DNA from: Burkholderiales bacterium
GTDB taxonomy: Bacteria > Pseudomonadota > Gammaproteobacteria > Burkholderiales > Burkholderiaceae_E
Length of the DNA: 64,000 nucleotides
Direction: 5' to 3'
Assembly (NCBI GenBank): GCA_027487815.1
Contig: JAIYCW010000055.1
Coordinates: forward strand, 1-64,000
The notes below the pieces were generated by a model. That model saw only the letters and a program-made list of their open reading frames with translations, was not told the origin of the DNA and searched no databases. Below are positions 53,200-64,000 of this stretch, one piece after another. The position numbers were made by a program, and so were the translations under genes. Numbering within the stretch: the stretch's first letter is position 1; every line of letters starts with the position of its first letter.

Positions 53200-53517
53200 A
53201 TGAAGTTCACAGCACATAGCGTTTTTGCCAAGCAGGCTAAGATCCAAAGCGCACTTAGAGGCCAGAGCAGGCGCCAGGGAGGGCAGGGAATGACGGAGTA
53301 TCTCGTCATCGTCTCGATTGTTGCGGTGGCAGCCATCGGGGTGTATTCCCTCTTCGGGCAAACGCTGCGCAATCAAACCGCAGGTCTTGCCATGGAGGTG
53401 GCCGGGCAAGACGCAGCGGCTGCGATTGGTAACGCACAAGCCAATGCCAATACCGCGCAGGGTAATGCAAATACTCGCAAGGGTCTGGATAACTACAACC
53501 TGCAAAACCGTCCCTAA
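53200..53517 (+). CDS. type IVb (Flp-like) pilin candidate
   Basis: The 105-residue protein has a 28-residue basic leader ending in Gly-Gly. QGMTEYLVIVSIVAVAAIGVYSLFG follows, which fits the type IVb rule of cleavage after Gly28 with Glu at +5 and Tyr at +6, then a hydrophobic helix. The C-terminal third (GNAQANANTAQGNANTRKGLDNYNLQNRP) is rich in Asn, Gln and Ala and looks low-complexity. It is longer than classical Flp pilins. AGGAG precedes the ATG. As the first gene of the Tad-type locus it is the best candidate for the major pilin, but a minor subunit role is possible. Confidence 0.75.
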   Translation: MKFTAHSVFAKQAKIQSALRGQSRRQGGQGMTEYLVIVSIVAVAAIGVYSLFGQTLRNQTAGLAMEVAGQDAAAAIGNAQANANTAQGNANTRKGLDNYNLQNRP

Positions 53518-53541: not shown

Positions 53542-54900
53542 ATGCAGCCCATCAAGTCTTCTGCCCAACAGGGTCAGGCCCTGGTTGCAGGCTTACTCAT
53601 GCTTGTTGTGGCGAGCGTGAGCTTGTTTTGGTGGTTTGGCACCAGCCAAACGATCCATATGCGACAGAAGCTTGAAACCGCCTCGGATGCTGCGGCCTAT
53701 AGCGCTGCGGTGCATCGTGCACGAGTGCTGAATTACATCGCCTATAGCAACCGGGCCATTATTGCCCAAGAGGTCGCTATCGCGCAGGCTGTGACTCTAG
53801 CTTCATGGTCTGCGTATTTTTCGAATTTACTGCAAACCGGCGGCACGGTGCTATCGGCTGCATATCCGCCCGCTGCTCCGTTTGTTCAAACCGCACAAAG
53901 CGTTGCGGATGCCGCGCGGGATATGGCTACGCAAACTGCCCAGATCGAGATTTGGGCGCGAGGCTCAAGCGGCACGGGTTACAAAAATTTGCTTGCCCTC
54001 AGTCAGCAGGCGATGCTGTTGAGCGCAGGAGTGATGGGCATGGGCGCAGTAGCGTTCGAAGTGGCTCATGCAAATGACAATCGGTTCTTCGCCTTTGCCC
54101 TCACTGACAATCACGCCTTTGATCGTATGGTGAAGCTGTATTCGACCGATACCGAAAAAGAGCGCTTGCGAGATATGGTGCTCATGAGTCTGGATGAGTT
54201 CGTGAAGGGGCCACGTTCGCTCGATCTGCGAATGCTGCTTTTGCCCTCTGGATGCTTTGGCCAGACCCTAAACCTGAGCCAATGGTTCCAAACATTGCGC
54301 AAGCGCGGTGGCACAGAACTCTCGGCCGATAGGCAGCGCTGGGAGGCGGCAGATACCGCATCGCTTCATGATTGGCGTCGCCGTGGATTCATCTTCAGGA
54401 GCTGTCGGGAATCCGAGCTGTTGGCAATGGGGTGGGGCGGTGCTGAAGCCGCTGATACTGAGCTCAGCCAGTCCCTGCAAGGCAATCCGGGCGGTACGTT
54501 CATCAACGGCTCGGCAAGCCAGATGGCTTCAAGCGATGTCAGCAATCGCAGCTTTAATGGCTACTCCGGAATTACTGAAGTGCATGACCTCGACTATGCC
54601 GCTTTAGGCACAGGCACCTTGCCGGGATCAAGGGTCGTGGTGCTGGCCTATGCGAAGGGCGAGGATGTCCGCACTGCCAACACCTTGAATGTCGGCGTAG
54701 GACGCTTAAGGCTTCAAGAAGCATGGGCGCGTGATCGTATGTGGTCCATGTCAGCTGCTGAGGTGGTGTTTCAAAAGCCCGCAGCCCTGTTAGGCCAAGT
54801 TGACGAACTGCCATCGCTATATGCTCCGTGGTGGCAGGCGCGTCTGTCTACGCCTAGTGCAGTGGAACACACTGTGGCGCAGGGCTATGTCGGACTGTAA
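53542..54900 (+). CDS. TadG-like pilus assembly protein
   Basis: The 452-residue protein starts with QQGQALVAGLLMLVVASVSLFWWFGTSQTIHMRQKLETASDAAAYSAAVHRARVLNYIAYSNRAII. A single N-terminal helix, then an Ala/Ser/Asp-rich segment, is typical of the TadG-like N-terminal domain. The rest is a large, presumably exported region without a recognisable domain. The Gly-Gln-Ala-Leu before the helix resembles the processing site of the neighbouring pilins, but Glu+5 is replaced by Gly in this protein. It is 24 bases after the pilin stop, and its 3' end overlaps the TadE-like gene by 14 bases. Confidence 0.75.
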   Translation: MQPIKSSAQQGQALVAGLLMLVVASVSLFWWFGTSQTIHMRQKLETASDAAAYSAAVHRARVLNYIAYSNRAIIAQEVAIAQAVTLASWSAYFSNLLQTGGTVLSAAYPPAAPFVQTAQSVADAARDMATQTAQIEIWARGSSGTGYKNLLALSQQAMLLSAGVMGMGAVAFEVAHANDNRFFAFALTDNHAFDRMVKLYSTDTEKERLRDMVLMSLDEFVKGPRSLDLRMLLLPSGCFGQTLNLSQWFQTLRKRGGTELSADRQRWEAADTASLHDWRRRGFIFRSCRESELLAMGWGGAEAADTELSQSLQGNPGGTFINGSASQMASSDVSNRSFNGYSGITEVHDLDYAALGTGTLPGSRVVVLAYAKGEDVRTANTLNVGVGRLRLQEAWARDRMWSMSAAEVVFQKPAALLGQVDELPSLYAPWWQARLSTPSAVEHTVAQGYVGL

Positions 54901-55696
54901 GCGCAAACTCGGTGGCCAGGCCCTCGCGGAGACCCTCGTGAGCATGGTGGCACTTTTGCCGATGGCTTATGCCGCGATTTACCTCGGCAAGTTGGTGACC
55001 TTGCGTCAGGCCAATCATCAGGCCGCGCACGCGCTGGTGTTTGAGTGCACCGTCAGACCAGAGCAATGCGCTGATCCCGCCCAGCATGATGCGTTTATTG
55101 ATGAGCAACGTCGCCGCGAATTCAGTCGCGCAGATGCTGGAATCCACACCCAGGAGCGATTGACGGCCTCGGTTCAGGGCACTGAGCGGCAGGCGCTTTG
55201 GAGCAGCCGCAAAGGGCAACCGATGCTGGCCAGCTATGGTGATATCGGAATGCGGATAGCGCCCGAGCGTTTCGATGCCGGCTTGGGTTGGGTGGGCACA
55301 GCGGGAGCGCAAGTCATGAGCTGGTTCGACAACACGGCTGGCCCCGCCCGATTTGGCCTGAATATCCAGCAAGGCATGTTCGTGGCACGTACTCAGACAG
55401 GTGTGCAGCAGCAGGAGTGGTTTGGGGCGCGTTCAATACAATCGCGAGCTGCGATCTTGACCGACACCTGGGCAGCTTCGAGTGCTTCTGGTTCCGAGTC
55501 TACAAGCGTAATGCAACGCGTGGACCAGGGTAACCGCCTGCCCTTGCACGCCGATGTTGCGATTGATCTTGCTTACGCGCCCACCCGAGGTTTTATCAGT
55601 TTGATGGATGCCGTCGGGCTGGAGCCGCAAGCTGGTCTATTTCGATATCACCACGCTGATGCTTCACTGGTGCCAGTGGATCGGCGGGTGCCATGA
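54887..55696 (+). CDS. TadE-like pseudopilin/pilus assembly protein
   Basis: The protein has 269 residues from the ATG at 54887. After a short basic start (MSDCKRKLG), GQALAETLVSMVALLPMAYAAIYLGKLVTLRQANHQAAHALVF gives a pseudopilin-like helix, with Gly10 as a possible cleavage site and Glu at +5. Two cysteines (FECTVRPEQC) follow closely and may form a disulphide. The remaining 200 residues have no recognised domain. The ATG is inside the previous gene, whose stop is 14 bases later. The next start overlaps its stop by four bases. Confidence 0.72.
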   Translation: MSDCKRKLGGQALAETLVSMVALLPMAYAAIYLGKLVTLRQANHQAAHALVFECTVRPEQCADPAQHDAFIDEQRRREFSRADAGIHTQERLTASVQGTERQALWSSRKGQPMLASYGDIGMRIAPERFDAGLGWVGTAGAQVMSWFDNTAGPARFGLNIQQGMFVARTQTGVQQQEWFGARSIQSRAAILTDTWAASSASGSESTSVMQRVDQGNRLPLHADVAIDLAYAPTRGFISLMDAVGLEPQAGLFRYHHADASLVPVDRRVP

Positions 55697-56427
55697 AGCT
55701 GAATCGAGGCTCACCTATCGCCAGTCCCTTGCTTGTGGGGTTGCTGAGCGCAGGCCTGGTTTCAGGCAGTGTCGCGCAGATGCTGGCGGGTGAACCGGCA
55801 AGCGCTGCCTTACCTTTCCCTGCTCGTCTCGTGCAAGCCGTCCCCTCGGCGCAGATTGCTTCCCATCGGGTCAGTATCGAACAATTTGAGTCCGCATGGT
55901 CGGTGCAAAGAATCATTCAGGCCTTACGTGTTTATTGGCAGGGCCGCCCGGATGCCTTAATGATCGAACCTGCCTCGAGCCCTTGGCAAATGATCTCGAT
56001 CAAAACCGCAAGCATGACGATCAACTATCAGCTTCAAGCTTCGGGTGCCGGGGCGATTGGTCTGATATCGCGTTGGGTTGAATTGCCCGTGTTGCCCTGT
56101 AAAACATTGGGCGCTGAAAGTGGGCTGGTTGCGAGCCGCTGCATGGTGCATATCGAGGGCACACAGCGTGTCACCACTGAACACCTCAGTACGCACGAGT
56201 CCTTAAGCCAGGCGTGGGGCCGGCTTGAGCGCTCAATGCGCAAGAACGCTTTGCACCCTCTGCCTGGAAGCCTCAAAACTGAGGGGGATGTGCGGCATGG
56301 AATGTGGAGCGCAGCAGGGCGCGAGTGGAGTGTCACCGGGGTCAGCACTGCCAATGGCGCCGCACTGACAGTATTGAGCCGCGAAAACCACCCTTTCGGG
56401 GTGAATACAAGGGGAGGTGAACGATGA
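55693..56427 (+). CDS. exported protein of unknown function in the Tad locus
   Basis: The 244-residue protein is not recognised. A hydrophobic N-terminal segment (SPLLVGLLSAGLVSGSVAQMLA, about residues 11-32) suggests a signal peptide or anchor. The remainder is mixed alpha/beta-like with two cysteines (LPCKT and SRCMVHIEG), which could pair in the periplasm. It overlaps the gene before and after it by four bases, so it is clearly expressed with the pilus genes and probably helps pilus assembly or the periplasmic machinery. No canonical Tad component matches it. Confidence 0.7.
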   Translation: MKLNRGSPIASPLLVGLLSAGLVSGSVAQMLAGEPASAALPFPARLVQAVPSAQIASHRVSIEQFESAWSVQRIIQALRVYWQGRPDALMIEPASSPWQMISIKTASMTINYQLQASGAGAIGLISRWVELPVLPCKTLGAESGLVASRCMVHIEGTQRVTTEHLSTHESLSQAWGRLERSMRKNALHPLPGSLKTEGDVRHGMWSAAGREWSVTGVSTANGAALTVLSRENHPFGVNTRGGER

Positions 56428-56621
56428 AAACTTTAGGGCGATTGGATCAGAGGCCGTTGAATCTGCAATACACACGCGGTCAGGCCATGGTGGAATGGCT
56501 GATAGCCGTTTCGCTGCTCTGTCTGGCGGTGGTCAGTGTTCAGGGAGGGCCATTAGAGCAAACGGTGAGTGCGATCGGCGCGCACTATCAGCGCTATACC
56601 CATGCAATGGCGCGACCATGA
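56424..56621 (+). CDS. small pilin-like protein
   Basis: This 65-residue protein has a leader of about 19 residues, then G-QAMVEWLIAVSLLCLAVVSVQG. Cleavage after Gly would leave Glu at +5 and Trp at +6, the type IVb pattern with Trp for Tyr. Only about 20 residues follow the helix. It overlaps the previous gene by four bases and cpaB by four bases (ATGA), so it is a real coupled gene and a plausible minor pilin or pseudopilin. Confidence 0.72.
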   Translation: MKTLGRLDQRPLNLQYTRGQAMVEWLIAVSLLCLAVVSVQGGPLEQTVSAIGAHYQRYTHAMARP

Positions 56622-57556
56622 TGAGTGCACTGATTCACAGGCTTAGAGGGTTGGGCGCTTTGTGGCAGAGGCCGGGAGTACGGTTGGGTGGCCTGGCACT
56701 ATTGGCACTAGGGTTCGCGGGCCTTGCAGCCCTCGCAGCCGAGGGTTACTTGCAAGGCGAGTTGGAGCAGCAGCGGGCGCAGAACGCTCCCACGCAGCAC
56801 TGGGTCGAGGTCATTGTGGCCAAGCGGGATCTTGGGCTCAATGAAACGCTCGACGAAGCCAGCGCAGCTGTTCGTAAGTTGCCGCGCGAATACTCGGTAA
56901 GCGGCGCGCTTTCACCTGATCATTTTGACCAGTTCAAGGGGCAACGTCTCGCAGTCGCTGTGCGATCGGGCGAACCGGTCCTGATGCATCACCTGGTCCC
57001 CAGCCAGACGGCCTCGCTTGCCACTCGCGTGCCCGAGGGCGTCCGAGCCATTACGATCCTCGTCGATGAAGTGAATTCGCTGTCGGGGATGCTGCAGCCT
57101 GGTGACCATATTGATCTGCAGGCCTCGATTCGCCCACCAGCAGTTCCAGGGTTACCAAGCCCAGCCGAAATCACCGGGCTATTGCTACAGGATGTGCCAG
57201 TGATGGCTACTGGAAAGCAGGCGCGGCCTCTGGCGGAAGACCCACAACAGCAACGCCCCTTCACCGCGATCACAGTCGAGGTCGATCCCCACGCCGCCCA
57301 ACGTCTGATCGTAGCCCAGCGCACCGGAAAGCTCACCGCCATGCTGCGTAATCGCAATGACCGGCAGCCCGTAGCGCAAAAGCCGCTCGATATCTTTGGT
57401 CTGCTGCAAATGCGACCCGCCCAAGCGGCTGTGGCTGCCCAGGCAGCGCCAGAGGTGATTGTTGGGGGCAAGGGCCCGCTCAAAGCCACCGAACCCTCTG
57501 CAGCGACCCAAGGTTCTGCACCAAACCCTCCACCAGTAGCGGCCGTTAAGCCATGA
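56618..57556 (+). CDS. cpaB: Flp pilus assembly protein CpaB
   Basis: The 312-residue protein has an N-terminal membrane helix (LGGLALLALGFAGLAALAAEGYL). A SAF domain follows (VEVIVAKRDLGLNETLDEASAAVRKLPREY, GQRLAVAVRSGEPVLMHHLV), then the CpaB/RcpC segment VPEGVRAITILVDEVNSLSGMLQPGDHIDLQAS. The C-terminus is Ala/Pro-rich. It lies in the periplasm and helps the secretin. The ATG at 56618 overlaps the small pilin stop; a longer upstream frame covers that gene and is rejected. The secretin gene start overlaps its stop. Confidence 0.92.
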   Translation: MMSALIHRLRGLGALWQRPGVRLGGLALLALGFAGLAALAAEGYLQGELEQQRAQNAPTQHWVEVIVAKRDLGLNETLDEASAAVRKLPREYSVSGALSPDHFDQFKGQRLAVAVRSGEPVLMHHLVPSQTASLATRVPEGVRAITILVDEVNSLSGMLQPGDHIDLQASIRPPAVPGLPSPAEITGLLLQDVPVMATGKQARPLAEDPQQQRPFTAITVEVDPHAAQRLIVAQRTGKLTAMLRNRNDRQPVAQKPLDIFGLLQMRPAQAAVAAQAAPEVIVGGKGPLKATEPSAATQGSAPNPPPVAAVKP

Positions 57557-58947
57557 ATCAAGCCATTCAACTATCTCAAAAGCTCAGGGCTTTGCTCCTG
57601 CTCGGTCTGGTTAGTATCTTTGGTGCATCGGCGCTGTTTGCCCAGGATGCAGTACGAAGCGAGCAACAGATCACACTTTATGTTGGTCAGGCTCATGTTC
57701 TCAACGAACCCGCGGTGCGCAGGATTGTCGTGGGCAACGGCCGGGTGGTTCAAGCCACTGCGCTTGATGACAAGCAGGTACTGCTGATCCCGGAAGCGCC
57801 GGGGCAAAGCACGATTCATTTGTGGAATCGTCAGAATCAGGAGCGCCATTTCGTCATCAATGTGCTGGCCCATGACACCGCACGAATGTTCGAGGAGGTG
57901 CGGTTGATGCTGGGGCCACAAACCAATCTCAAGCCGCGCATTGTTGGTGATCGAGTGCTGCTTGAAGGTCTCAGTCAAAACGATGAGCAATCCCAGCGGG
58001 TAGCCGAGGTGCAAAAGCGTTTTCCCCAGATGGTTAACCTCGTCGGCAGGGTAGGCATCGAGCGCATGATCGGGATGGACGTTCGCATGGTGGAGATCAA
58101 GCGCGAGGTATTGCGCAACATTGGTGTGAAATGGAATGGTTCAGCCAATGGCCCCTCGTTCGGAATCCTTGGCGATTTGCATCGCTCCAGCGCCTTTCAA
58201 AGCGGCGGTGCGGCCAGTAACTTTCCCGGTTTGAACGCTGCGCCACGCGTTGCCCCTTTTGCGACATCCCTCGGGCTGGCAAGTTCAATCACGTCCATGC
58301 TGAATTTTCTCGTGCAAAACGGCGACGCAGTCATTCTTGCGGAGCCTCGATTGTCTTGCCGCAGCGGTGGGTCAGCCCGCTTCATCGCCGGGGGCGAGCT
58401 ACCGATCCCAGTGTCTACAGGTTTGGGAGCCACCACCGTGATGTTCAAGGAATACGGGGTGAAGTTTGATGTGAATCCCGTGGCTAATGAGCAGGGTGTA
58501 ATCGCTGCAAAGATAGCCACAGAAATCTCCGCGATCAACTTTGAGGTGATGGTGCGGGAAGTGCCCGGGTTGACCAAGCGGCGCGCCGAAACCGAGGTCA
58601 ATCTTCGTGAAAACGAAACCCTGGTGATTGCGGGGCTGGTTACCGAGGATTCTTCGCGCAGCGTTGACAAAGTGGCAGGCTTGGGTGAGCTGCCGATCCT
58701 GGGGCCTTTGTTTCGGTCCAGGCAGTTCCGGGATCGAGTGACAGACCTTGTGGTCTTTATCACTCCTTCATTTGTGACTCCGGAGTCGGATCGGCTTGAG
58801 GCCCAAAGCATGGCCCGGGAAATAGAACCCGCCCGACCCCTGCCTGCGCCAGTATCAGGTTCAAGCTCGGTGCCGACACCAAGTGTTCAGCAGCATTGGC
58901 GCGAACGCTACAAGCAGCAGCGCGACAAGCTTCCCATGATGGAGTGA
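57553..58947 (+). CDS. rcpA: Tad secretin RcpA/CpaC
   Basis: The 464-residue outer-membrane secretin has a signal peptide (cleavage near FAQD at about residue 32). The pilus-assembly N-terminal domain (ITLYVGQAHVLNEPAVRRIVVGNGRVVQATALDDKQVLLIPEAPGQSTIHLW) is followed by a BON-like part. The secretin core (LAEPRLSCRSGGSARFIAGGELPIPVS, GVKFDVNPVA, LRENETLVIAGLVTEDSSRSVDKVAGLGELPILGPLFRSRQFRDRVTDLVVFITPSFV) then follows. It forms the outer-membrane channel for the pilus. It is coupled to cpaB by four bases, and the ATPase gene follows after 3 bases, without the usual tadZ in between. Confidence 0.95.
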   Translation: MNQAIQLSQKLRALLLLGLVSIFGASALFAQDAVRSEQQITLYVGQAHVLNEPAVRRIVVGNGRVVQATALDDKQVLLIPEAPGQSTIHLWNRQNQERHFVINVLAHDTARMFEEVRLMLGPQTNLKPRIVGDRVLLEGLSQNDEQSQRVAEVQKRFPQMVNLVGRVGIERMIGMDVRMVEIKREVLRNIGVKWNGSANGPSFGILGDLHRSSAFQSGGAASNFPGLNAAPRVAPFATSLGLASSITSMLNFLVQNGDAVILAEPRLSCRSGGSARFIAGGELPIPVSTGLGATTVMFKEYGVKFDVNPVANEQGVIAAKIATEISAINFEVMVREVPGLTKRRAETEVNLRENETLVIAGLVTEDSSRSVDKVAGLGELPILGPLFRSRQFRDRVTDLVVFITPSFVTPESDRLEAQSMAREIEPARPLPAPVSGSSSVPTPSVQQHWRERYKQQRDKLPMME

Positions 58948-58950
58948 CGC

Positions 58951-60576
58951 ATGGCCAGCCTGGGTATCAGTATTCGACATGACGGGGGCGCTGCGCGCTA
59001 TTGCGAAATAGATGCGTTTCCCTGCTCCATCGGACGCGCGTCAAGCAGCCAGATCCAGCTTTCGGGCTGGCGTGTGGGCCGCGAGCACGCACAGCTTGAG
59101 CGGGTGGGTGATGGCTTCAAATGGGTCGACCGCGGTAGCCTCACTGGCAGCCGAATCAATGGTCAACGCGTCACCGAGTTTGGCCCGCTTAATGAATCGG
59201 ATGTGATTGAGGTAGGCGACTATCAATTGCAGGTAGTGGTGTTAAACGCTGCTGCACTTGCTCAGAAACCCACTGCGATTCATGGTGGAGTTGAGGCCAA
59301 CCTGAACCAGTCGAATTCCATTCAAGGGCTCGGCTCGTCCCCTTTTGGGTCCGACCAGAGTGCACTACAGGAGGACCGCTTAGTACAACGCCTGCATCGC
59401 GAACTACTTCAGAAGATGGACCTTCGTCATTCCAGCGTCCAGCACTACACCCCAGCCCAGTTGAAGGCGGAAACAGCCCGGCATCTTGAAGCCTTAGTGG
59501 AGCAAACTGGCTTGCAAGCGAGCGCGCGAGTGAGTCAACGTGTTTTGGATGAAGCGGTTGGGTTGGGGCCGCTGGAAGAACTTATCGCCGACCCCGAGAT
59601 TAGCGAAATCATGGTCAATCGATATGACCAGGTGTTTGTTGAGCGCAACGGCCGGCTCAATGCATGCCAAGCAAAGTTCAGCTCGGAGCAGGCCTTGCGC
59701 GCGATCATTGACCGAATTGTCAGTCCCCTTGGTCGCCGCGTGGATGAGGCGTCCCCGATTGTCGATGCCAGGCTTCATGATGGCTCCCGAATCAACGTGA
59801 TAGTTCCTCCTCTTGCTCTGCGTGGTACGGCACTGACCATTCGCCGTTTTAACCGCGCCTTCTTTTCACCTACCCAGCTCGTAGAGTCAGGAACCTGTAG
59901 CGCGGAGATGATGCGCTATCTCCAGGACGCAGTTCATGCACGTAGCAGCCTGGTGGTGAGTGGCGGCACGGGTAGTGGAAAAACTACGATGCTGAATTTA
60001 TTGGCGCAGTTCATCGATCCAGATGAGCGGGTCGTCTCCATCGAAGATGCGGCGGAACTGCAACTGGGCTTAAGCAATTGGATCGCGCTGGAATGTCGCC
60101 CACCAAATAGCGAATCTCAGGGTGAAGTGACGGTTCGGACTTTGGTGCGTAACGCACTGCGAATGCGGCCAGATCGCCTCTTGGTCGGGGAATGCCGCGG
60201 CGCAGAGGCCGTGGATATGCTGCAAGCGATGAACACCGGTCACTCGGGCTCCATGACCACGCTTCACGCCAATAGCGCACGCGATAGTCTGGCCCGGCTG
60301 GAGACCATGACTCTGATGGCCAACCTTGAGCTGCCAATCCAAGCAATTCGTGAGCAGATTGCATCTGCGATTGGGGTTGTGGTTCAAATGCAGCGCCTTC
60401 GCAGCGGCCAGCGTGTAATGAGCGAAATCGTTGAGCTCACTGGCTTGGAAGGTGCGCGTATCCAGCTTCAGCCCATGTTTGCTTGGGACAGTACAAATCA
60501 ACAGTTTCAAGCCAGTGGCTTGCCGTCCCGGGTGATCAGTGCCCTGTCAAGCGTTGCGCAAGAGGCTCATGTATGA
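58951..60576 (+). CDS. tadA: TadA/CpaF pilus ATPase with N-terminal FHA domain
   Basis: The 541-residue protein begins with an FHA domain (about residues 20-95: [47 protein letters not shown]). The CpaF/VirB11-type ATPase follows, with the Walker A motif GGTGSGKT at about 338-345, IEDAAELQL and the His box [23 protein letters not shown]. The FHA Arg is present, but the usual Ser before Arg-x-His is Gly, so phosphothreonine binding may be weakened. The ATPase powers pilus assembly from the cytoplasm. FHA-CpaF fusions occur in some bacteria but are not the standard Tad form. tadB starts inside its stop (ATGA). Confidence 0.93.
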
Positions 60577-61424
60577 CTCTCCTCGTGTTGAGCGTGCTGG
60601 CCAGCGCCGCGGCTGTGGGCGTTCTGGTTTGGATTCTGGCTTGTGCCCTTCCTCCAGCCCTGCAAGCGCAGCAACGGCACTTCAAGGGTCAAATTGGCCT
60701 GGGTTTGCGTACCGTCGCGCTATACATCGACCCGGGTCAGCTGTGGATAGGGCAAATGCTCCTGGCGGTGATTCTGGGCCTGACTGTGCTGGGGTTAAGC
60801 GGCTCAGTTGGATTAACTCTGCTCATTGTTGGCGTGATGGGGCTCACCCCGAGATTAGTTATCTGGCGGATGCGTCGCGTGTACCTTCAACATGTGCGCG
60901 AGCAATTACCTGATGCCATGCGGATGATGGCTGCCGGCTTGAAAGCAGGGGCGGGTCTATGGAGTGTCATTGACCTGCATGCCAGGGAGCTACCTCATCC
61001 CCTTCGGGTGGAGTTCGAAATGTTGTTGCGCGAACAGCGCCTCGGTCAAGGGGTGGAGCCTAGCCTTTTAGCCCTCCAGGCTCGATGCCCGATGGAGGAA
61101 ATGCGGCTCTTCGTGGCGTTGCTGCGGATGGGGCACGGTAGTGGTGGCAGCCTGGCGCAAGCCCTCAACGCACTAGCCCTGAGCTGCCAGCGCAAACTGG
61201 AGCTGGAGGGCAAAACCGACGCACTCACTGCACAGGGGCGTCTGCAAGCGATTGTGATGGGGCTGTTGCCCAGCGCATTGCTGCTGATGTTGCATGTGGT
61301 CGACCGCGATAGCGCACGACTGCTGACCCACACCTTCAATGGGCAAGTAGCGCTTGCCTGCGCACTGCTGATGCAGTTACTCGGATTTGTGCTGATTCGG
61401 CGCATAGTGCGCATCGAGGTTTGA
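60573..61424 (+). CDS. tadB: Tad inner-membrane platform protein TadB
   Basis: The protein has 283 residues from the ATG at 60573, overlapping the ATPase stop. A first helix (LLVLSVLASAAAVGVLVWILACALP) and a helix pair around residue 65-90 are followed by the type II secretion F domain: REQLPDAMRMMAAGLKAGAGLWSVIDLHA, LRMGHGSGGSLAQALNALA. Terminal helices include QAIVMGLLPSALLLMLHVV. It forms the inner-membrane platform with TadC. The longer frame upstream lies in tadA. Confidence 0.92.
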   Translation: MTLLVLSVLASAAAVGVLVWILACALPPALQAQQRHFKGQIGLGLRTVALYIDPGQLWIGQMLLAVILGLTVLGLSGSVGLTLLIVGVMGLTPRLVIWRMRRVYLQHVREQLPDAMRMMAAGLKAGAGLWSVIDLHARELPHPLRVEFEMLLREQRLGQGVEPSLLALQARCPMEEMRLFVALLRMGHGSGGSLAQALNALALSCQRKLELEGKTDALTAQGRLQAIVMGLLPSALLLMLHVVDRDSARLLTHTFNGQVALACALLMQLLGFVLIRRIVRIEV

Positions 61425-61430
61425 CGCGAT

Positions 61431-62366
61431 ATGAATAGCCTCCAAGTCTTATGGTGGATGGCGATTGTGAGCCTGGGGGTCACTGTGGCGTGTGCGGTCA
61501 TGGTGTGGGTAAAGATTCAGCACACCACTATCGATAACCGTACCCCTCTCAAGCCGACCAGCAGGGTTGGAACAATAGGCACGATCATCAGCTTGGGCAA
61601 GATCATCGCCGCCGTCTTTCTGCTTGAACCGTGGCGGCAAAAAGGTTTGAGCCAGCGTGCTGACCGGGCTTTGGTTCAAAAGCTAAAGCGTGCTGGTTTG
61701 GATCGAGCCATCACGTCTCCTGAATTTCGTGCCCTTCAACTGGGAAGCTTCGCGATTGGGATATGTGTAGGCGGTGTTTTGGTCAGGCTGGTTTCTTTGT
61801 TGCGCGCCGATCTGGGCACGGGAGCGGCAGCGATGCTGTTGGTTTTACCTGGCGTTGTCGCTTTTCTAATGACCCACGCCTGGATACGCGACAGGTCGCG
61901 CTCCCGCCGCGCTGCTGTCTTGAGGGATTTGCCCTTTGTGCTTGATCTGATGACACTCGGGATTGAATCTGGGCAAAGTCTTTCAGCAGCACTGGTGTTG
62001 GTAATTGAAAAGGCTGCCCCCGGGCCTTTGCTCGAGCATCTTCGAGTCCTGATGGCTCAGCTTAAGGCGGGCCAAACGCAGGAGGTGGCCTTGCGTGAGT
62101 TCGGCCAGGATATTGATGTGGCGTCGGTGCACGCGTGGGTCGCTGCGGTGTTGATCGCACACAAGCAAGGTGCGAGTTTGGCCGGGGTGTTTCGCGCGCA
62201 GGCCGAGCAGGTGCGCGTTGAGCGATTCCTGAGGGCCGAGAAGGCGGCAATGCAAGCGCCGGTCAAAATGCTTTTGCCCCTGGTGATCTTCATTTTTCCG
62301 AGCGCATTTATTGTCCTGTTTTTTCCTGTGATCAGTCGGCTTATGGCAGAAGGATTCCTAAAATGA
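61431..62366 (+). CDS. tadC: Tad inner-membrane platform protein TadC
   Basis: The 311-residue membrane protein has an N-terminal helix (LQVLWWMAIVSLGVTVACAVMVWV) and a central pair near 105-150. The F-domain part is LRDLPFVLDLMTLGIESGQSLSAALVLVIEKA, LREFGQDIDVASVHAWVAAVLIAHKQGASLAGVFRAQAEQVRVERFLRAEKAAMQAPVKMLLPLVIFIFPSAFIVLFFPV. It pairs with TadB. It starts 6 bases after tadB, and its stop overlaps the DUF192 gene by four bases. Confidence 0.92.
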   Translation: MNSLQVLWWMAIVSLGVTVACAVMVWVKIQHTTIDNRTPLKPTSRVGTIGTIISLGKIIAAVFLLEPWRQKGLSQRADRALVQKLKRAGLDRAITSPEFRALQLGSFAIGICVGGVLVRLVSLLRADLGTGAAAMLLVLPGVVAFLMTHAWIRDRSRSRRAAVLRDLPFVLDLMTLGIESGQSLSAALVLVIEKAAPGPLLEHLRVLMAQLKAGQTQEVALREFGQDIDVASVHAWVAAVLIAHKQGASLAGVFRAQAEQVRVERFLRAEKAAMQAPVKMLLPLVIFIFPSAFIVLFFPVISRLMAEGFLK

Positions 62367-62689
62367 AGCTCTATCGGGCGCATCGATTCTTTGCTCGAGC
62401 ACGCGGGTTACTAGGGCGACCACGGCTGAAACTGGAGGAAGGGTTATGGCTCAAACCCTGCCGCAGTGTTCACACCTTTGGCATGCATTACTCAATTGAC
62501 CTGGTTTTTATTGATGGCAATGCGCAGGTTGTGAAATGCGTTGAATCGCTTTCACCTCGAAGCTTTGCGGCGTGTTCAATCGCGCACTCGGTCATTGAGT
62601 TTCCCCCCAAAACCATTGCCCTGGCCGGCATCCGGCCGGGCATGCATCTCAAGGAGATCGGTTGTGATGACTATGTATTTGCCGCCTAA
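62363..62689 (+). CDS. DUF192 family protein
   Basis: The 108-residue protein has the DUF192 pattern: FFARARGLLGRPRLKLEEGLWLKPCRSVHTFGMHYSIDLVFIDGNAQVVKCVESLSPRSFA. Function of the family is unknown; the fold is a small beta-barrel. No signal peptide is seen in this copy, so it is probably cytoplasmic. It is inserted between tadC and the TPR gene and coupled to both, which suggests a role in the pilus system. Confidence 0.88.
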   Translation: MKLYRAHRFFARARGLLGRPRLKLEEGLWLKPCRSVHTFGMHYSIDLVFIDGNAQVVKCVESLSPRSFAACSIAHSVIEFPPKTIALAGIRPGMHLKEIGCDDYVFAA

Positions 62690-63758
62690 TGCGTTTCCTC
62701 GCGATCAACCCGTCCGAGTGCATTGGCGTGATCGGGCTTTCAACCGCAGACTGATGGTGCTGGCTTGCTGGTGGCTTGCGATCGCGCCGTGCCTGGCTCA
62801 GGAGCCAATCAATCTGGAGAAGGCGAGGTCCGCCGGCAAATCCAGGCAAGTGATGGAGGTGTTGCACCCCAGCTCGGTACCAAGCAGCAATACCCCAATG
62901 AGTTCGGAGGCTCAGCGAATTCTCGGGCCTTTGGTGCTGCTCAGGCCCCTGTCGACGGACGCGATTGAACGCCTCTATGGGGAGGCTGATGGCCACTACC
63001 AAGGGCGAGCTCAGCGTCAAGCCTTTGATGCTCTGATGCAACTGCTTGAACTGGTTCCCGATCATGTTCCGGGCTGGCTCAGACTAGGCAATTTGTTGCA
63101 ACAACGCCATGACGTCACCCTCGCCAGTCGGGCGTATCGGCGGTGCGTGGAATTGAGCCGTATTCAGGGTGCGCAGGCCGCTGAGTTCGGGCATAAAGCA
63201 CTTTTTAATCTGGCTTCGATCAGTCTTCAGCGCGCCCAGGAGGCAGTGTTGGAGCTTGAAGGCTGGCAGGCTGTCAAAGAGCATCGCACCGCCCAAAGCG
63301 GGGTAGGGGAAGGGTCTGAAGCAGTTCGAGGAGACAGAGCGGGTAACGCGACGTCTGATGACAAGCTCAGGCCGGTAGTGGAACTTTTAAGCAATCGCTG
63401 GCAGGAGCTGCAAAGTGGTCTTGGAGCTCCCCAATCCTCTTCCCCTCCTATTCAGCTTGCAGCAAACGAAAGCGAGCAGGGCGTTTCCCCAAAGGTGCCG
63501 GTATACCAGGGATGGGCGAAGCGTCGCCAGCCTGGTCATCGGCAACTGGCTTTACCGCCGGAAGATGAGGTCAAAAAAGGCCAGGCACCTAGCAAGCCGG
63601 TAATGCGCGCTGGCGAGGGCTTGCAGGCTGCGCAGCCAAGGATTCAGGAGATGCGCACTACTCCTGAAATCATGAGCAATCCTGGGGCGCCAAGCCGTCC
63701 TCCAGAGGTGATTTATCTCAATGGTAAGCCAGGCGCTTCGACGAAGGCCTCCCGATGA
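62667..63758 (+). CDS. TPR protein of the Tad locus
   Basis: The 363-residue protein, from the ATG at 62667 after AAGGAG (62651-62656), has a signal-like segment (RRLMVLACWWLAIAPCLAQ). One to two TPR-like repeats follow (AFDALMQLLELVPDHVPGWLRLGNLLQQRHDVTLASRAYRRCVEL), then a long low-complexity C-terminal half rich in Gly, Ala, Ser and Pro. It sits where the TPR lipoprotein TadD is found in standard loci but has no clear lipobox. A GTG one codon earlier is an alternative start. The start lies inside the DUF192 gene; the stop overlaps the next gene (ATGA). Confidence 0.75.
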   Translation: MTMYLPPNAFPRDQPVRVHWRDRAFNRRLMVLACWWLAIAPCLAQEPINLEKARSAGKSRQVMEVLHPSSVPSSNTPMSSEAQRILGPLVLLRPLSTDAIERLYGEADGHYQGRAQRQAFDALMQLLELVPDHVPGWLRLGNLLQQRHDVTLASRAYRRCVELSRIQGAQAAEFGHKALFNLASISLQRAQEAVLELEGWQAVKEHRTAQSGVGEGSEAVRGDRAGNATSDDKLRPVVELLSNRWQELQSGLGAPQSSSPPIQLAANESEQGVSPKVPVYQGWAKRRQPGHRQLALPPEDEVKKGQAPSKPVMRAGEGLQAAQPRIQEMRTTPEIMSNPGAPSRPPEVIYLNGKPGASTKASR

Positions 63759-64000
63759 GGCCCCCCAGATACCGGGTAAAACTCGGGCGGCATTCGGGTG
63801 TGGCGCTAACCGAGCTTTTGATTAGCCTGCCGATTCTGGCGGCGGTTGGATTGGGTGGTTTGCAGGTGAGTCAGGTGATGCGCTGGCGAATTCATCTGGG
63901 CTATGTAGTCAACGAAGCGGCCCGCCAGGGAGTGCTCGACCATGCTCTGCCCATCGGGGTGGAAGCAGGGATAGCTCGCGGGCTTGCGCCGATCCTTGGG
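63755..64000 (+). CDS. TadE-like pseudopilin (partial, cut by window end)
   Basis: The 82 visible residues start MRPPRYRVKLGRHSG, followed by VALTELLISLPILAAVGLGGLQVSQVMRWRIHLGYVVNEAARQGVLDHA. A Gly followed by VALTE places Glu at +5, the pseudopilin signature, and the helix and NEAARQGV part are TadE-like. The start overlaps the TPR gene stop by four bases. The 3' end is beyond the window. Confidence 0.78.
   Translation, partial: MRPPRYRVKLGRHSGVALTELLISLPILAAVGLGGLQVSQVMRWRIHLGYVVNEAARQGVLDHALPIGVEAGIARGLAPILG

Follow-up and report, generated by a model that had tools for sequence, protein, structure and literature searches.

The window, a stretch of 64,000 nucleotides from a Burkholderiales bacterium (assembly GCA_027487815.1, contig JAIYCW010000055.1), contains a Tad pilus operon of a distinct sub-type, here designated FHA-Tad, in which an FHA domain is fused to the motor ATPase, tadZ and tadV are absent, and a DUF192 gene is present. 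All of its genes lie on the + strand; the names Flp, TadE and TadD were given by eye together with synteny. At the upstream end is a Flp-like prepilin (53200..53517), recognized by sequence and synteny with no Pfam match, relatives of which were seen in the other loci. It is followed by a TadG-like protein (53542..54900; Pfam Tad 0.0035, below the cut-off) and a TadE/F-like pseudopilin (longest ORF 54800..55696), assigned from its position and N-terminus and also lacking a Pfam match. Between the latter and rcpC lies the gene for an exported-looking protein, 'p4' (55693..56427), which has no Pfam or NCBIfam match, an apparent N-terminal signal sequence by eye, and relatives in many FHA-Tad operons. 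Then come RcpC/CpaB (longest ORF 56417..57556; Pfam RcpC 4.6e-24, SAF 4.2e-07), an RcpA/CpaC-like secretin (57553..58947; Pfam Secretin 4.1e-34) and the FHA-TadA motor ATPase.

Downstream of the motor are the platform proteins TadB (60573..61424; T2SSF 1.1e-10), whose start codon overlaps the tadA stop and whose longest ORF begins at 60483, and TadC (61431..62366; T2SSF 2e-13). The DUF192 (COG1430) protein (62363..62689; Pfam 1.9e-14) is a mark of the FHA-Tad operon. Two further genes were read by eye: a TadD-like repeat protein (62541..63758), with no NCBIfam match and a true start probably later than 62541, and a second TadE-like pseudopilin (63755..64000), which continues past the window and has 321 amino acids in L016. 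Among the features of Tad (T4cP) systems, the operon has a TadA/CpaF-type motor, TadB with TadC, and the RcpA secretin with RcpC; TadZ/CpaE and TadV were not found in it. Since the rest of the machine is present, TadZ/CpaE is read here as a feature of most Tad systems and not as a defining one.

The motor gene (58951..60576, + strand) is an open frame of 541 amino acids, separated by 3 bases from the end of the secretin gene at 58947, and there is therefore no room for tadZ at that place. Pfam detects FHA at residues 26–89 (5.6e-11) and T2SSE at residues 202–483 (4e-61), both over the cut-off. Coordinates and Pfam matches thus confirm the first-pass annotation of this DNA, which had described a TadA-type ATPase gene starting 3 bases past the secretin gene, an FHA domain at the N-terminus of its product, and no tadZ between the two genes. 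The FHA domain is also matched by Yop-YscD_cpl (1.2e-07; 32.4 bits, just under the cut-off of 33.2), and the motor by the TadA family TIGR03819 (1.6e-95, below its cut-off). In an AlphaFold2 model (mean pLDDT 82, pTM 0.65) an FHA-like run of strands occupies residues 1–100, followed by a disordered linker (residues 101–134, pLDDT <50) and a CpaF-like part. The order of domains is FHA (approximately 1–100), linker (101–134), a helical bundle from residue 135, with model helices at 135–155, 168–186 and 192–203, an NTD, and a C-terminal ATPase domain. The top Foldseek matches of the model in the PDB were the CpaF chains 8rjf, 9e24 and 8rkd. With its FHA domain, disordered linker, three-helix bundle, NTD and ATPase domain, the window motor belongs to the CpaF class III architecture. 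In L086, L098, L235 and L236 the FHA-tadA frame is split between two ORFs or interrupted within the FHA domain, by sequencing error or decay.

The flanking genome was searched for a tadZ/cpaE homologue, the check proposed at first pass. Neither the operon, nor the contig, nor the draft genome (91 contigs, 95.57% complete) yielded one with AAA_31, a TadZ protein or a TadZ profile. The remainder of the contig, to position 67,509, has no tadZ and contains, by eye, tadE-like and nucleotide-sugar genes. The best score of the TadZ profile in the draft genome was 24.7 bits; in other genomes the same search gave six matches, with scores between 86.6 and 307.5 bits, and two of these matches adjoin tadA in fetched loci (L274, L275). 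The single TadZ protein query returned nothing from the window genome (G000) at 1e-6. Seven AAA_31 matches in this genome were identified by eye as three ParA-like proteins, Mrp, an EpsG-like kinase, BchL and BchX, and its weak TadZ-profile matches as ParA-like, EpsG-like and BchX-like. TadZ_N (PF16968) also had no match in this genome but was dropped as a test, the control being silent too: it matches just one of eight TadZ proteins here at an E-value of 0.01 or below, and was replaced by the three queries named above. The ParA motif KGGxGxT, which misses TadZ in L239, L240 and L241, was replaced by the profile for spotting tadZ. The organism also appears, by eye, to carry bacteriochlorophyll genes, the BchL-like (L011) and BchX-like (L012) proteins both being specified on G000:C84.

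The distribution of the two traits was surveyed as the first-pass annotation had suggested, and FHA-TadA was not found together with TadZ: no TadZ match of at least 50 bits was present in any of 68 FHA-tadA loci, which belong to 16 families by database labels (best 28.2 bits), nor was a tadZ gene found elsewhere in the same locus. At least 2 kb lies upstream of tadA in 65 of the 68. The FHA domain was matched at an E-value of 0.01 or below in 33/34 and 25/25 motors scanned. Among 74 genomes of the family of the window organism, 66 have a tadA match at 1e-30 and 24 a TadZ match of at least 248 bits (next best 56.5 bits). No more than about 0.25 kb separates each of the 24 TadZ matches from a tadA match starting after the FHA region (residue 111 or later); eight of these loci were fetched and read gene by gene (L087–L094). 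The remaining 42 of the 66 tadA-bearing genomes, some incomplete, have no TadZ match over 57 bits, and include one assembled in one contig (G014) and one in six (G017). The gene order of the window recurs, as far as the contigs reach, in 31 family loci (L056–L086), and a ParA-type gene is absent from all 31; such a gene lies between the secretin gene and tadA in all eight of the FHA-less loci read.

A sample of 200 genomes of the order gave 78 listed matches, comprising 29 FHA-type and 38 FHA-less tadA genes of at least 400 bits and 11 weaker rows (<400 bits) that were set aside; up to six candidates were scored per genome, and some tadA genes may be missing. TadZ, checked with the single protein for G000, G014, G017, G022, G056 and G057 and with the profile for the other genomes, lay within about 0.5 kb of none of the 29 FHA-type genes as against 34 of the 38 FHA-less ones. 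The coupling of FHA fusion with absence of tadZ that the first-pass annotation had put forward is, on these figures and those from the 68 loci, real and recurrent. A draw of 397 genomes from the phylum, with three candidates scored per genome and the best rows, down to about E 1e-147, retained, served to find FHA types outside the order and not to establish absence; the matches listed included eight FHA-type loci, six from the class's other orders and two further ones from the order itself, and none of the eight had tadZ beside tadA. Sampling was confined to this phylum. Nor was TadZ matched in 77 named loci, mostly with Burkholderiales titles (Advenella, Massilia, Telluria, Noviherbaspirillum, Zeimonas and Lautropia among them), a set which overlaps the family genomes; L095, for example, is on a contig equal in length to G070:C11. 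Throughout the fetched loci no ParA-type gene was found beside an FHA-type tadA. L123 and L133, MAG contigs titled Bordetella parapertussis, have operons like those of the window family, and the title of L123 at least looks wrong, its length being that of contig G039:C125 from the window family. Genome G127 combines a TadZ-type Tad system with two FHA-Tad operons, L214 and L215, in the latter of which the FHA domain is weakly conserved.

TadZ was found in 15 of the 23 FHA-less loci examined, a figure biased low since L225–L229, L231, L232 and L234 were picked for having no TadZ match; 34/38 from the order sample is the fairer value. L227, counted as without TadZ, possesses in the tadZ place a ParA-like ORF with KGGLGAT and no Pfam match; L228 and L229 are very divergent; and L231, L232 and L234, where rcpA and tadA are the only genes visible and lie beside urease genes (by eye), say little. 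L225 (6047–13977) and L226 (5659–13597) are otherwise full-looking Tad operons with neither an FHA domain nor tadZ. They specify TadV by Pfam, RcpC, RcpA, TadA, TadB and TadC by profile, and TadE/G-like proteins by eye, and the genomes holding them (G238, G175) have no TadZ match over 36 bits and also carry FHA-Tad. Since both traits are lacking in these two operons, loss of tadZ does not require the FHA domain.

In a tree of 104 motors (66 FHA, 38 FHA-less), based on the part after the linker with the FHA columns excluded, the FHA motors formed one clan on a single branch (support 100/99). The window motor is fast-evolving, with an end branch of 1.21, and the placement of such long rows is unsure. 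Because all sampled FHA motors fall in one clan, the association of the FHA domain, the absence of tadZ and the other traits may go back to one event; the long retention of the paired traits argues for function. Among the further marks of the sub-type, a same-strand DUF192 gene is present downstream of tadA in 63 of 64 FHA loci (at least 3 kb downstream, at least 40 bits; from L056–L086, L202–L224, L230, L233, L235, L236 and L266–L273) versus 0 of 23 FHA-less loci. In the 64th (L220) it is upstream on the other strand. The figure of 63 is a recount per profile, a count with one label per ORF having given 59/64 and missed some. Of ten outer examples, eight score above the Pfam cut-off and one below, and L224 gives no match. 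The DUF192 protein is a possible unrecognised Tad component or ligand of the FHA domain. A TadV-like peptidase gene was detected, using query proteins two of which pass Pfam Peptidase_A24, in 0 of the 68 FHA loci (window included) versus 17 of the 23 FHA-less loci. The prepilins of FHA-Tad systems must therefore be cut by another peptidase, a task that would fall to a different type IV leader peptidase.

The Ser of SxxH and the Asn of the NG loop are taken here to be the key phosphopeptide contact residues in FHA domains. In the window the first motif reads RVGREHA, with Gly43 at the Ser place, and Thr65 occupies the NG-loop Asn place. The Ser-to-Gly change pointed out at first pass is therefore present, and is half of a group-wide pattern in which the Asn is lost too. 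Residues were counted in 68 FHA-TadA domains chosen without regard to Ser; the 77 named loci were excluded since the pattern by which they were found demanded Ala or Gly at that position. Ser is kept in 4/67 domains and replaced by Ala or Gly in 63/67, the NG-loop Asn is kept in 0/66, and a Trp stands three positions before the Ser place in 61/67. The GR-motif Arg or Lys is retained in 65/67, as is the His. The profiles with which the domains were found and aligned include the FHA domain of this clan itself; detection may be skewed towards similar domains as a result, but the residues read are unaffected. In the alignment, GarA and other solved relatives show S-R-x-H and N-G-T. FHA domains outside the motor served as a control in nine of these genomes: 15 of 19 keep both Ser and Asn versus none of the nine motor domains, which were read by eye (Fisher p 1e-4). 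Both residues are also present in the other FHA domain of the window genome (L282). In a Bdellovibrio FHA structure the cleft is described as also using an Arg and an Asn (PMC6733907). By these residues, FHA-TadA domains have lost their phosphothreonine contacts across the group and, probably, the ability to read phosphorylation. Some phosphate affinity is conceivable given the retained GR Arg or Lys and His, and four of the 67 domains keep Ser.

Among the views of the domain offered by the first-pass annotation were a link between assembly and Ser/Thr phosphorylation and the binding of an unphosphorylated partner, and the residue counts probably favour the latter. A phospho-switch, in which a Ser/Thr kinase would mark a partner that the FHA domain then recruits, as in type VI secretion (T6SS) regulation, could draw on the conserved GR and His positions and on a Hanks-type kinase that passes the Pfam cut-off in 20 of 23 chosen FHA-Tad genomes, the window genome having one; PMC12019362 describes the class III FHA domain as binding phosphothreonine, citing a review. 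The loss of Ser in 63/67 and of Asn in 66/66 domains, when both persist in most other FHA domains of the same genomes, weakens this link, as do the three genomes lacking a kinase over the cut-off (G169 and G429 with no match, G166 with none over it), and we consider such a switch improbable. Because the contacts are lost group-wide yet kept in those other domains, phospho-independent docking is more probable than switching by a kinase. In four family genomes (G014:C1, G017:C4, G013:C1 and G047:C30), some 63–80 kb separate a Hanks-type kinase gene from FHA-tadA, which is probably general synteny.

It is quite possible, although we would not bet on it, that TadZ is simply dispensable in this lineage and that the FHA domain does another job, for example autoinhibition or tuning of the motor, the two traits having come together on the same branch. 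In favour of this account, the sampled FHA-TadA proteins form a single clan, and the association may thus be a single event; the clade differs in several further ways at once (no tadV, a DUF192 gene), and the FHA-less operons L225 and L226, in genomes with no TadZ match over 36 bits, do without tadZ as well. It sits less easily with a pair of traits that holds in every one of 68 loci from 16 families, and with the adjacency of TadZ to nearly all FHA-less tadA genes in the order sample. We strongly disfavour the idea that another ParA/MinD ATPase does the work of TadZ in trans, or that tadZ is hidden in assembly gaps: although the window genome is a 91-contig draft with several ParA-type proteins, 42 of the 66 tadA-bearing family genomes, the one-contig and six-contig assemblies among them, have no TadZ match over 57 bits, and no ParA-type gene stands beside the FHA-type tadA in fetched loci.

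The preferred reading, to which a probability of roughly 0.5 is assigned, is that the motor-borne FHA domains are constitutive, phosphorylation-independent docking modules that help bring the motor to the inner membrane or keep it there. Three published findings make it the most likely one: in Caulobacter, the ring-shaped densities that surround the CpaF hexamer have been fitted with CpaE dimers (PMC13170226), TadZ is reported to act early as a hub which recruits other Tad parts (PMC6668835), and the FHA-fold ring of PrgH is reported to serve assembly without phosphothreonine binding (PMC3635987). If the motor forms a hexamer as CpaF does, six FHA domains would be displayed on disordered linkers, where the Caulobacter Tad machine has its ring of CpaE/TadZ dimers round CpaF. 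Candidate docking partners would be a cytoplasmic loop of the platform, the DUF192 protein, or other FHA domains. The FHA domain may take over the role of TadZ in particular, as suggested at first pass, and L225 and L226 count against this as a necessity. A fuller version, in which six phospho-blind FHA domains, perhaps with DUF192 as ligand, would form a docking ring that replaces TadZ/CpaE and so merge motor and positioning factor, is put forward tentatively and is rather unlikely.

Fusions of FHA to CpaF were already known, as the first-pass annotation had stated, from CpaF class III (PMC12019362) and from KilF (PMC8460266); what is new is that they consistently go with loss of TadZ. In open-licence PubMed Central no paper was found that connects FHA-CpaF with tadZ loss, with DUF192 or with the missing phosphothreonine residues. 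TadZ/CpaE has been called a ubiquitous component of Tad systems (PMC13170226), and a wide group of Tad operons without TadZ, whose motor possesses a different accessory domain, offers a natural comparison for what TadZ does. The results also warn that an FHA domain fused to a motor should not in every case be taken for a reader of phosphorylation.

CpaF class III was described in 2025 by its FHA domain and disordered linker, with Achromobacter xylosoxidans E3HIW0 as an example, and as 'mostly found in betaproteobacteria' (PMC12019362). The window motor shares with it the order FHA, disordered linker, helical bundle, NTD and ATPase domain, and the same distribution. Unlike the phosphothreonine-binding FHA domain set out in that paper, the domain studied here has lost the contact residues, and tadZ and tadV are absent; TadZ and CpaE go unmentioned in its main text. 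The canonical Tad/Cpa systems (Caulobacter, Aggregatibacter; L087–L094 here) have the secretin, RcpC, TadA, TadB and TadC genes in the same order as the window. The eight canonical-type loci possess tadZ and tadV, no FHA domain and no DUF192 match, the opposite of the window in each respect, and their TadA proteins, about 50% identical to the window motor over the shared part, fall outside the FHA clan. The Kil apparatus of Myxococcus xanthus, set beside the window by description, is likewise Tad-like with a motor, KilF, bearing an N-terminal FHA domain, but its genes lie in two clusters, it has several additional FHA proteins and no TadG, and it assembles at prey contact (PMC8460266); the main text of that paper mentions neither TadZ nor CpaE. 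A further parallel is the cytoplasmic domain of PrgH/YscD/MxiG of type III secretion, where an FHA fold is likewise part of a multimeric membrane machine and the phosphopeptide residues are reported to be poorly conserved, the difference being that there the domain is on a membrane ring protein and in the window on the motor ATPase (PMC3635987).
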